From NCBI GenBank assembly GCA_017308345.1, contig JAFKFE010000264.1, positions 1-13,964 of the forward strand: a stretch of DNA of 13,964 bases, in the 5' to 3' direction. Both the position numbers and the translations under genes were made by a program. The notes under the pieces are model-generated. The model made no database searches. It had not been told where the DNA came from and was given only the letters and a program-made list of their open reading frames with translations. The DNA comes from Alphaproteobacteria bacterium (lineage in GTDB: Bacteria > Pseudomonadota > Alphaproteobacteria > Rhizobiales > Rhizobiaceae). Positions 2,929 to 12,871 of the stretch are shown in pieces. The first letter of the stretch is position 1, and each line of letters starts with the position of its first letter.

Positions 2929-3700
2929 TCGGTATCCCAGATTGGGGCTGCTCGGCGGCACGGTCGAGACTGCCGGCGTCGCCGCGTCCGACCACCGCGT
3001 AGGCGACCTCGCCGATCTGGAAATAGGCCGATGAGATGTCATCGGCGGGCGCCACCGTCGGCTTCACGACGTCGAACGTGCCCGGCCTGATGGCGAACAG
3101 CGAGACAAGACCGAGGTCCCTGGTCTCGACCGCGACCTCGACGCTCGGCCCGAATTGCGAGGGATAGACCTGAACGTCGCGGATCTTCCAGTCGTCGGGC
3201 AGCGACGGCATGACGATCGCCGTCGCGGCTCGGATCTCGTCGGCATTGTAGGCCGGCGCTTCTTGCTGCGACGGCATGGTTTCACGCACCAAAGTCGTGC
3301 GGTGCGCCCGGACCGCATCCTCGACATAGGCCGGCGGCTGTGTCGAGGCGGCCACCTTGGTCACGGCGATCGGCCCGAAAATACCGTTGGCCAGCCAGCC
3401 CGCGGCGACCAGCACGGCAGCGGCGGCGGCCCGATGCAGCACGGCAAGCATACGCCCCCTGGCAAGCGCCCTTTCCAGCCGCCGCGCCGCCTCGGTCGTG
3501 GCCGGACGCGCCATGCCGACGGGGCCGGCAAGCGCCACGCGCAGTTCGTCGCGCGTCCTCAGATCCGACATCACGCGCGCCGCCGCTTCCGGGCGCGCGG
3601 CGAGGTGCGCCTCGACCTCGATGCGGCGGGCGACATCCAGCTGATCGTCGACATAGGCGTCGAGGTCGGCATCGGTTACGGGGTCGACAATGACGGTCAT
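2894..3700 (-). CDS. Membrane anti-sigma factor of the adjacent ECF sigma factor, C-terminus altered
   Basis: The 268-residue frame has an N-terminal anti-sigma domain (about 8-60: DADLDAYVDDQL, then ARRIEVEAHLAARPE) without the HxxxCxxC zinc motif. A basic linker follows, then one transmembrane segment (about 91-110), and a presumably periplasmic C-terminal domain with AIVMPSLPDDWKI (161-173) and FGPSVEVAVETRDLGLVSLF (183-202). It should sequester the ECF sigma factor at the membrane and release it on an envelope signal; the signal is unknown. The start ATG (3700) overlaps the sigma stop codon as ATGA, the usual arrangement for such pairs. The family-like sequence ends at DRAAEQ (246-251). 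The last 17 residues (252-268) are read out of frame from the Bax inhibitor gene, and the stop lies 35 bases inside that gene. This tail looks like the product of a deletion and may or may not matter for function. Confidence 0.8.
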   Translation of the reverse strand: MTVIVDPVTDADLDAYVDDQLDVARRIEVEAHLAARPEAAARVMSDLRTRDELRVALAGPVGMARPATTEAARRLERALARGRMLAVLHRAAAAAVLVAAGWLANGIFGPIAVTKVAASTQPPAYVEDAVRAHRTTLVRETMPSQQEAPAYNADEIRAATAIVMPSLPDDWKIRDVQVYPSQFGPSVEVAVETRDLGLVSLFAIRPGTFDVVKPTVAPADDISSAYFQIGEVAYAVVGRGDAGSLDRAAEQPQSGIPNGHRRSGRSRL

Positions 3701-9104: not shown

Positions 9105-9204
9105 AGGGAAATATCCGGCTTTCTTAGGCGATTCCGCCCCTGCCGTAATGAACAATCGCGTGGGCCAAGCCGGTTCCAGGGAGTCTACTCAATTCCGGAC
9201 GGAA

Positions 9205-9232
9205 GGTTACGGCGAAGCCGCCGACCCTAACC
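9205..9232 (-). other. Hairpin after ntrX, possible weak terminator
   Basis: On the - strand GGTTA-(GGGT bulge)-CGGCG pairs with CGCCG-TAACC around a GCTT loop, a 10-bp interrupted stem about 25 bases after the ntrX stop codon. The following TTCCGTCC is only mildly T-rich. It might attenuate read-through from ntrYX into dat. Confidence 0.3.
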
Positions 9233-9256
9233 GCCGCGCACTTTTCCTCGAATCGC

Positions 9257-10590
9257 CTACACGCCGAGCGACTTCAGCTTGCGGTGGAGCGCCGAGCGCT
9301 CCATGCCGATGAATTCGGCGGTCTTCGAGATGTTGCCGCCGAAGCGGTTGATCTGGGCGATCAGATAGTCCTTCTCGAATTGCTCGCGCGCCTCGCGCAG
9401 CGGCAGCGCCATGATGTGCTGGTCCGACTGGTTGGGCGTGCGTGGCATCACGTCGCCGATCTCGGAAGGCAGAAGGTCGGCGGTGATCGGCGCATCGGCC
9501 TCTTCACCGCGAGCCAGAATCATCAGCCGCTCGACATTGTTGCGCAACTGGCGAACGTTGCCCGGCCAGTTGTGCGCCTGCAGCACGGCCAGCGCATCGT
9601 CGCCGATACGGCGCGGCTTGATGCCGGCCTGGCGCGCAATCTGCTTCATGAAATTGTCGACGAGATAGGGAATGTCCTCGCGCCGCTCGGCGAGCCCGGG
9701 CACCATGGGTCCTCGCGGAAGCGGCCATCGGCGATCATTGCCTCAAGGTTTTGCGAGGTGGATGAGATGATGCGCACGTCGACCTTTACCCGCTTGGTGC
9801 CGCCTACCCGCTCGAATTGCTGCTCGACCAGCACGCGCAGGATCTTGTTCTGCGTCTCGCGCGGCATGTCGGCCACTTCGTCGATGTAGAGGATGCCGCG
9901 ATGCGCCTCTTCGAGCGCGCCAACCTTGCGCTCGGTGCCGTTCGATTCGGTGCCGAACAGCTCGATCTCCATGCGCTCGGGCGTGATCGTGGCGGCGCTC
10001 AGCGTCACGAACGGGCCGGTCTTGCGCGACGATAGCGCGTGGATGGCGCGTGCCGTCAGTTCCTTGCCGGAGCCGGAGGGGCCGACGATCATGACGCGGC
10101 TGTTGGTGGGAGCGACGCGCTCGATGGTCTGCCGCAACTGGCTCATCGCCGACGACATGCCGATCAGATCGAAGGTCTCGCCGCTGCGCTGCTTGAGGTC
10201 GGAGACCTCGCGCCGCAGCTTGGACGTCTCCAGGGCGCGCTCGGCGACCAGGATGAGGCGATCGGCCTTGAACGGCTTCTCGATGAAGTCGTAGGCGCCG
10301 CGCCGGATGGCCGAGACCGCCGTTTCGATGTTGCCGTGGCCGGAGATCATCACCACCGGCATGTTCGGATGCATGGTCTTGATCTCGTCGAGCAGCGCCA
10401 GGCCGTCGAGGCGTGAGCCCTGCAGCCAGATGTCGAGGAAAATCAGACGCGGCGCGCGGTCGGCGATCGCCGCCAGCGCGCTGTCGGCATCATGTGCCGT
10501 GCGGGTTTCATGACCCTCGTCGCTCAGGATACCGGCGACAAGTTCGCGGATGTCTTCCTCGTCATCGACGATGAGAATGTCAGACGCCAT
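9257..10590 (-). pseudogene. ntrX: Frameshifted ntrX, NtrY/NtrX response regulator
   Basis: NtrX is the partner regulator of NtrY, linked to nitrogen, redox and microaerobic control in alphaproteobacteria. The first part (ATG 10590 to 9709, 294 residues) has the receiver domain with the phosphorylated D53 in IFLDIW and K105 in EKPF, then the AAA+ domain with Walker A GPSGSGKE (170-177) and Walker B ILYIDEVAD (233-241). GAFTGA is absent. Right after FRED (291-294) the frame breaks and a stop follows 20 wrong residues later (9646). The rest of the AAA+ domain (from MVPGLAERREDI) and the Fis-type helix-turn-helix (GNISKTAEFIGMERSALHRK) continue in another frame from 9706 to 9257. NtrC in this window has 10 residues where only two bases remain here, so about 28 bases are missing. 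The summed length of about 453 residues would fit the family. The start overlaps the ntrY end by 11 bases and has AAGG 7 bases ahead. Confidence 0.85.
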
Positions 10591-12871
10591 TACCGACCTT
10601 TTCAGTTTCTCTTTCGTGTTCGCTTCGACCTTCACCGCGTGGCGGCGCGGCTGAGGTCGTCGCCTGGGGCAGGATGATCGAGATCATCGCGCCCCGGCCA
10701 CCGTGGAAATCCGCTGGCGCGTCGTGCAATTCGAGACGGCCACCATGGTCCTCCACGATCTTCTTGACGATAGCGAGGCCGAGCCCGGTGCCTTTCTCGC
10801 GCGTCGTCATATAGGGCTCGAGAAGCCTTTGGCGATTCTCGCGCGGCAGCCCCTTGCCGTTGTCGATAACATCGATTCGTATGGCGCCATCTTGGCGCGC
10901 GGCCTGAATCCGGATTGTGCCGTCCGAACGGTCTTGCGCATCAAGTCCGTCGATCGCCTCGGCGGCGTTCTTGATGACGTTGCCGAAGGCCTGCGCCATC
11001 AGGCGGCTGTCGAAAGTGCCCTTCAGCTGCTCGCTGCCAAAATCGCGCTCGAAGGCGATGTCGGAGCGGCTGACCTCGACCAGGAAAGACGCCTCGCGCA
11101 GCGATTCACGCAGGTCGATCGCCTTCATCTCCGGCTTCGGCATGCGGGCGAAGGCCGAGAACTCGTCGACCATGCGGCCGATGTCCTCGACCTGGCGGAT
11201 GATGGTATCGGTGCACTGGTCGAAGACCTCGCGGTCCTCGGTGATGACCTTGCCGTAGCGGCGCCTGATGCGCTCGGCCGAGAGCTGGATCGGCGTCAGC
11301 GGGTTCTTGATCTCATGCGCGATGCGCCGCGCCACGTCGGCCCAGGCCGACGAACGCTGCGCCTGGACGAGATCGGTGATGTCGTCGACGGTGACCACAT
11401 AGGACTTCTCTTCCTCGCCGCCGTCGCCGGATTCGACGGTGACCTGAACATTGAACGTGCGCTCCAGGCCGGTGCGGAAGAAGGTCACCTGCTCGCGATA
11501 GACCGGCTTGCCTGACTGGCGTCCGATCTCGAAGACGCGGCCGACAAGGGGCAGGACCGCCGAAATGTTCTGGCCGAGCGCCGCGCTTGCCGAAATCGCC
11601 AGCATGGTTTCGGCCGAGCGATTGACGATGGTGATGATGCCGTATGGGTCGACGCCGATGACGCCGGCGGTGACGCCGGCCAGCACCGCCTCGGAGAAAC
11701 GCCGGCGCTCGTCGATCAGATCCTTGGCCGAGAGCAGCTCGTTGCGTTGCGATTTTAGTTCGAGGATCATGTTGTTGAAGGTGTCGCCGAGCGAGGCGAC
11801 GTCGCCGTCGGACTGGCGTACCGCAACGGCGACATCGAGATTACCGGTCGCCACCTCGTCGGCGGCGCCGATCAGCTGGCGGATCGGCCGCACGATCCGG
11901 TCGGCGACCGCGATGCCGGTCCAGATCGCCGACAGGATGATGATCAGCGTGAGCGACAGGTAAGGCAGCGCGAAGGCGACCTGAGAGGTCCGCCGGTTGT
12001 CCTCCAGATTGCGGTATTCGTCGGTGTTGGCCTTGACGATCTGGCGCGCCTTGATCACGTCGGGATCGACCAGCCGGATCGTATAGAGGTAAAGCCCCTC
12101 GATCTCGCGCAGCTTAATGATGGCGCCCATGATGTTGCGGGTACGCGGCTCTATCAGCACCGGCTTGCCGTCCGCCGCGGTGTCGACAGCGCCCGCCGGC
12201 GGCTCTGGCATGGGGAAATCGGCGTCGGTCTTGGCGTTCATGACGAACGAGCCGTCGGGCTTGATCAGGGCCGCGTGCGCCAGTCCGCGCCCGACGGCTT
12301 CCTTGTTCAACAGATCGAGGAAGCCGCCCCGGTCGAGACCATAGAGCGTGCGCGAGGCATCGAGATCATATGCCATCGACAATGTCGTGCCCTGGAGGTT
12401 GCGCGCGTTCTCCTGGACATAGGCGTCGGCGATCGACAGCGACGAGTTGACGATCGTCTTGGTGCGGATCTCGAACCAACGGTCGAGCCCGATGTCGAGC
12501 GTGATGGAAGCGATGATCGCGACCATGATGGCCGGAATCGCGGCAACCAGCGCGAACATCGCGACGATGCGCACATGGAGCCGCGAGGCGGCCCGGCCGT
12601 GGCGCCGCGCCAGGACGATGCGGCGCACCTCGCGGGCGATCAGCGCGATCAGGAACAGGACAAAGACGGCGTTGGCCGCGACCAGCGCCCAGGTCGTGTC
12701 GGCGGTCGGCGCGATCGGCGTTGCGCCGACCAGGATCGCAAACGAGATCGCCGCCGTGATCACCGCGCCGGCGATGGCAACCACGCCGGGCAACGCCAGC
12801 AACCGCCGGCCGTCGCGCGTGCCGGCCTGGCTGAAAAGCGGTTGGTTCAGGATCGGAGCCTCAGCTGCCAT
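10580..12871 (-). CDS. ntrY: Sensor histidine kinase NtrY
   Basis: NtrY is a membrane sensor kinase of 763 residues (usual about 750 to 770). Segments at about 27-50, 61-79, 101-123 and 300-322 are transmembrane, with a periplasmic domain (about 125-299) between the third and fourth. A HAMP domain (about 323-375) and a PAS domain (about 388-500) follow. The dimerisation domain carries the phosphorylated H519 in RRIAHEIKNPLTP. The ATP-binding domain has N635 in GNVIKNAAEAI, G1 DNGKGLP (670-676) and G2 GTGLGLA (694-700). It is complete, and its expected partner is NtrX; in Brucella the PAS domain binds haem and senses redox state. The start ATG at 12871 has no strong ribosome site. It ends 11 bases inside ntrX. 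The 139-base gap to ntrC contains repeats that could be an operator. Confidence 0.94.
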   Translation of the reverse strand: MAAEAPILNQPLFSQAGTRDGRRLLALPGVVAIAGAVITAAISFAILVGATPIAPTADTTWALVAANAVFVLFLIALIAREVRRIVLARRHGRAASRLHVRIVAMFALVAAIPAIMVAIIASITLDIGLDRWFEIRTKTIVNSSLSIADAYVQENARNLQGTTLSMAYDLDASRTLYGLDRGGFLDLLNKEAVGRGLAHAALIKPDGSFVMNAKTDADFPMPEPPAGAVDTAADGKPVLIEPRTRNIMGAIIKLREIEGLYLYTIRLVDPDVIKARQIVKANTDEYRNLEDNRRTSQVAFALPYLSLTLIIILSAIWTGIAVADRIVRPIRQLIGAADEVATGNLDVAVAVRQSDGDVASLGDTFNNMILELKSQRNELLSAKDLIDERRRFSEAVLAGVTAGVIGVDPYGIITIVNRSAETMLAISASAALGQNISAVLPLVGRVFEIGRQSGKPVYREQVTFFRTGLERTFNVQVTVESGDGGEEEKSYVVTVDDITDLVQAQRSSAWADVARRIAHEIKNPLTPIQLSAERIRRRYGKVITEDREVFDQCTDTIIRQVEDIGRMVDEFSAFARMPKPEMKAIDLRESLREASFLVEVSRSDIAFERDFGSEQLKGTFDSRLMAQAFGNVIKNAAEAIDGLDAQDRSDGTIRIQAARQDGAIRIDVIDNGKGLPRENRQRLLEPYMTTREKGTGLGLAIVKKIVEDHGGRLELHDAPADFHGGRGAMISIILPQATTSAAPPRGEGRSEHERETEKVGNGV

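Follow-up and report, generated by a model that had tools for sequence, protein, structure and literature searches.

The ntrX gene of the window, the 13,964-base stretch of DNA analysed here and an entire contig (C843) of its assembly, is split within the AAA+ domain by the absence of 28 bases. This split is very probably a local assembly error, and in the organism itself an ordinary, unbroken ntrX most likely lies beside ntrY. We favour an error because the same contig holds a second gene-breaking deletion, ileS is split in the same assembly, scaffold gaps are mis-sized, and purifying selection on both parts of ntrX is undiminished. Our confidence in an artefact is lowered somewhat, since junction microhomology proved uninformative and an unfiltered count of breaks showed no excess. 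The main rival to this reading is a real, recent deletion.

The assembly comprises 1307 contigs and 5.41 Mb, with 79.9% completeness and 1.84% contamination. Its fragmentation suggests a metagenome bin as the source. Table 1 gives the features on which the argument turns.

Table 1. Features of the window, with positions, strand and basis
Feature	Positions	Strand	Basis
ntrX first part: receiver and most of the AAA+ domain	9709..10590	-	294 native residues; PF00072, PF00158
ntrX junction: 28 bases of congeners absent, frame broken	9707..9708	-	alignment, genus search
ntrX second part: AAA+ lid (PF25601) and Fis-type HTH (PF02954)	9257..9706	-	149 aa from internal Met
ntrY, intact sensor kinase (NtrY_N, HAMP, PAS, HisKA, HATPase_c)	10580..12871	-	763 aa
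Second junction: about 63 bases of three relatives absent	2951..2953	-	comparison with G105, G112, G118

The ntrX locus and its relatives

The minus-strand genes around ntrX are part of an NtrC-type gene, ntrY and a class IV aminotransferase gene. As in the NtrY/NtrX systems of alphaproteobacteria, the locus encodes a receiver, a sigma-54-type AAA+ domain, a lid and a Fis-type HTH, and ntrY adjoins; the difference is that the window's NtrX domain set, complete with PF00072, PF00158, PF25601 and PF02954, is spread over two reading frames. The first frame opens at ATG 10590 and its native residues end in GRFRED, after which another 20 residues follow out of frame before a stop that ends at 9646. 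The second frame begins with ATG 9706 and stays open to 9257. An earlier note, made from the letters of this DNA, had described a 28-base deletion in the AAA+ domain that breaks the frame and separates the DNA-binding domain, next to an intact ntrY. All of this was borne out: the Fis-type HTH is open in the second frame, and NtrY retains all its domains. The same note held that ATPase sensor residues are lost, and here it needs correction. In the nearest relatives the ten missing codons encode LYHRLAVVPV, which corresponds to the arginine-finger neighbourhood of NtrC-type ATPases and not to the sensor residues. In the spacer between ntrX and the aminotransferase gene, about 81 bases (9175-9255) are present in the window and in the single-contig genome G105 and absent from G112 and G118.

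Aligned with 29 congener loci, the window's ntrX showed a single gap in 919 columns, and this gap is 28 bases long. A search of the genus, the comparison with relatives that the earlier note had proposed, showed that in each of the 145 other genomes the matched ntrX span exceeds that of the window by exactly 28 bases. A 22-base string across the junction occurs in one genome of 146, the window's own, and so the relatives sharing the junction that the note had allowed for were not found among them. The closest of the 145 genomes, G079 (94% over the ntrX span), has the 28 bases, and its assembly is also fragmented (630 contigs, 86% complete). The best named matches of the first part are from Mesorhizobium, with the proviso that this comparison may omit the records closest to the window. 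A motif-based frame check was passed by 102 of 109 related ntrX loci, including one cut by a contig end (L087) and one that is a single residue off in the end motif (L117). Among the seven that failed, L084 and L118 are whole, L094, L100, L103 and L109 have open frames of 453-480 residues, and the seventh is L095. Three NtrX proteins close to that of the window (P0001, P0002 and P0043), from contigs of 2.0-3.8 kb, are without 6, 39 and 7 residues, respectively, each in a different place; these are possibly similar assembly errors.

We compared both parts of ntrX with four relatives. In all eight comparisons dN/dS was 0.00-0.03, indicating strong purifying selection, and against G079 the two parts differ by 37 synonymous changes and 1 non-synonymous change. 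The usual signs of a pseudogene, relaxed selection and further disruptions, were thus not seen in ntrX, which has no other gap. Such undiminished selection is what either an artefact or a change of extremely recent date would show.

The earlier note had also raised the possibility of an intact second ntrX elsewhere in the genome. None was found among the readable contigs of the assembly, where other matches are at most 46% identical. When 62 of the 1307 contigs were picked by contig number, 29 proved to be all N, the longest of these having 2,853 bases, and a copy on a short contig could be hidden.

Other broken genes in the window and the assembly

At position 2953 of the window, a stretch that is present in three of three relatives examined is missing. 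In these it holds the last codons and the stop of one ORF as well as the codon at which the Bax1-I ORF starts. Its loss breaks both, and the end of the upstream ORF runs into the Bax1-I start region. In the relatives the string GGAG stands directly before the Bax1-I start and resembles a ribosome-binding site for it. No Pfam match was obtained for the upstream ORF; from the look of its neighbour, this ORF is presumably an anti-sigma factor.

Similar results were obtained for ileS, and it is on this gene that the case for an artefact chiefly depends. The readable contigs contain one copy, in which residues 7-851 and 876-1003 lie in two frames of contig C840 (L229, G000:C840, 9019-11936), with 94 bases missing; the two remaining ileS matches in this assembly were too weak for listing. 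The break falls within the region of the isoleucine--tRNA ligase model (residues 39-903). In 29 of 30 other genomes ileS is a single stretch that reaches residue 1002 or 1003, and in the thirtieth, G079, it is cut by a contig end. Four of the 29 have a single TGA inside the match, which we take to sit at its upstream edge; the open frame nonetheless has at least 1001 residues. A cell with only a split ileS should not live, and therefore, unless an unreadable contig carries an intact copy, the split of ileS is most likely artefactual.

Five further essential families (rpoB, rpoC, alaS, dnaE and gyrA) were checked, and no further two-frame split was seen. The genes dnaE and gyrA are whole in this assembly. 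Among the readable contigs, rpoC was not found, nor were true rpoB and alaS, whose matches are other proteins; gene absence in this assembly therefore says little. When a single gene seems lost from a fragmented assembly, other, essential genes of the same assembly should be checked. One of the matches, on the minus strand of contig C455 (L277:1001-2047, G000:C455), is a 348-residue ORF with HTH_31/HTH_3 and a piece of RNA_pol_Rpb2_6 (59.9 bits). It is an unusual-looking fusion and not true rpoB.

The sampled contigs also contain six runs of N, of 9, 16, 34, 47, 64 and 88 bases. Four of these could be placed against a relative, whose spacing at the same positions is 25 (N 9), 81 (N 47), 63 (N 64) and 43 bases (N 88). 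The runs thus deviate from the relative by -16, -34, +1 and +45 bases, although the relative may itself differ naturally. If gap sizes were misjudged in this way, the split of ntrX could be explained as follows. In the true genome the two ntrX stretches would be parted by a short piece that had no usable reads. They would have been joined end to end, the 28 intervening bases being lost and no N put in, presumably at a gap whose size was estimated as zero or less. A gap sized at zero would be joined without N, and the product would resemble a clean deletion of such size.

In metagenome assemblies, incorrect genes are known to arise from local assembly errors and scaffolding gaps (Chen et al. 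2020, PMC7111523). The present case resembles the errors described in the cited part of that work in being short-range, at or near scaffold joins in a fragmented assembly, and in yielding incorrect protein-coding genes. It differs in the criterion applied, which there is a region without perfect read support and here is sequence comparison only; moreover, a gap joined without N does not figure in the cited part of that description.

Deletion counts across the assembly

Besides the window, 30 sampled contigs have at least 6 kb. Of these, 21 could be placed on the single-contig genome G105 by means of tags; overall, 24 of 33 tags found a place (this assembly, 21 of 30; G079, 3 of 3). After three duplicates had been dropped, 102 genes of this assembly were checkable inside. 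We counted as lone a deletion with no other gap within 150 columns, a filter chosen after the unfiltered count had been seen.

With this filter, lone frame-breaking deletions of at least 20 bases were found in 4 of 102 genes here, whereas among the 237 genes of the controls there was 1 (p = 0.03 in a one-sided Fisher test, the filter being post hoc). The four genes are ntrX, ileS, an M3 oligoendopeptidase gene and an amidohydrolase-like gene. When in-frame cases are set beside the frame-breaking ones, the lone deletions of this size are 4 + 2 of 102 here and 1 + 1 of 195 in G112; G079 plus G118 gave 0 of 42. For all lone deletions, the pooled one-sided Fisher p was 0.01. Compared to the 42 divergence-matched genes only, the values were p = 0.25 for frame-breaking deletions and 0.12 for all. 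Without the filter there was no excess: frame-breaking gaps of at least 20 bases came to 4 in this assembly, spread over 4 of 105 genes, and to 7 in G112, spread over 4 of 195. This assembly had 31 clean indels of at least 10 bases over 187,071 aligned bases and G112 had 34 over 257,922; of the deletions, 11 of 20 here fell within called ORFs, compared to 4 of 16 in G112. As support for an artefact, these counts are suggestive at best.

Two further signs were considered and dropped. Junctions with 0-2 bases of microhomology were found in 15 of 17 deletions here and in 11 of 15 in G112, after the exclusion of 3 of the 20 deletions here and 1 of the 16 in G112, for which the realigned gap differed in size. 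Such junctions are equally common in the control, and microhomology was therefore rejected as a sign of an artefact. General genome decay was the second. The genes with lone frame indels of 1-9 bases were 2 of 102 in this assembly, 1 of 195 in G112 and 1 of 42 in G079 plus G118, and genes with internal stops were 2 of 105 here, 2 of 195 in G112 and 1 of 30 in G079. These counts are too few to show decay.

Alternative explanations

One possibility is that this strain, or part of its population, truly and very recently lost the 28 bases, so that NtrX is inactivated and NtrY left without a partner. In its favour, the junction is clean and the aligned part of ntrX has no other gap; clean deletions without microhomology also separate the better-assembled G112 from G105. 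Loss of ntrX is not always lethal: in Caulobacter the gene is described as conditionally essential, and on minimal medium a strain lacking it could be isolated (PMC5892882). In Sinorhizobium meliloti, on the other hand, the cited part of another study states that its authors did not obtain an ntrX deletion and that a depletion strain barely proliferated without inducer (PMC9223101). It is hard to see how the companion breaks, at 2953 and in ileS, could all be genuine in a viable organism, and purifying selection is unchanged across both ntrX parts. We therefore regard a real deletion as unlikely. Recent pseudogenes made by small deletions resemble this locus in that a single deletion breaks the frame of a gene that is conserved elsewhere along its length; they differ from it in that companion breaks accompany the one in ntrX, including that in ileS, of which the readable assembly has one copy, and in that selection is not relaxed.

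The earlier note had offered two readings, a sequence error and a real loss that leaves NtrY orphaned. The first is favoured by the companion breaks, the N gaps and the selection on ntrX, and the second was not supported. A broader proposal, that a Mesorhizobium-type population has lost NtrX function or makes two proteins while the intact NtrY signals through another regulator, likewise seems to us improbable. If the loss were real, an NtrY without NtrX would make two-component cross-talk directly testable.

Another possibility is that NtrX works in two pieces, the receiver/AAA+ part and the lid/HTH part being made as separate proteins, the second from ATG 9706. Each part keeps its domains, the second frame is open, and its ATG stands behind a purine-rich stretch with GAGGA directly upstream; however, that stretch consists of conserved arginine-glutamate-aspartate codons found also in relatives, the ATPase core itself is interrupted, and the junction is in no other genome of the 146, so that a functional two-piece NtrX is very improbable. 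Free C-terminal NtrX pieces do exist in the protein collection, at least 120 among 6517 matches in the length range, but for 79 of the 120 listed the longest contig is below 3 kb, as cut-off genes would show. For 25 of the 120 listed pieces, including P0122, P0125, P0195, P0204 and P0214, the longest contig has at least 10 kb.
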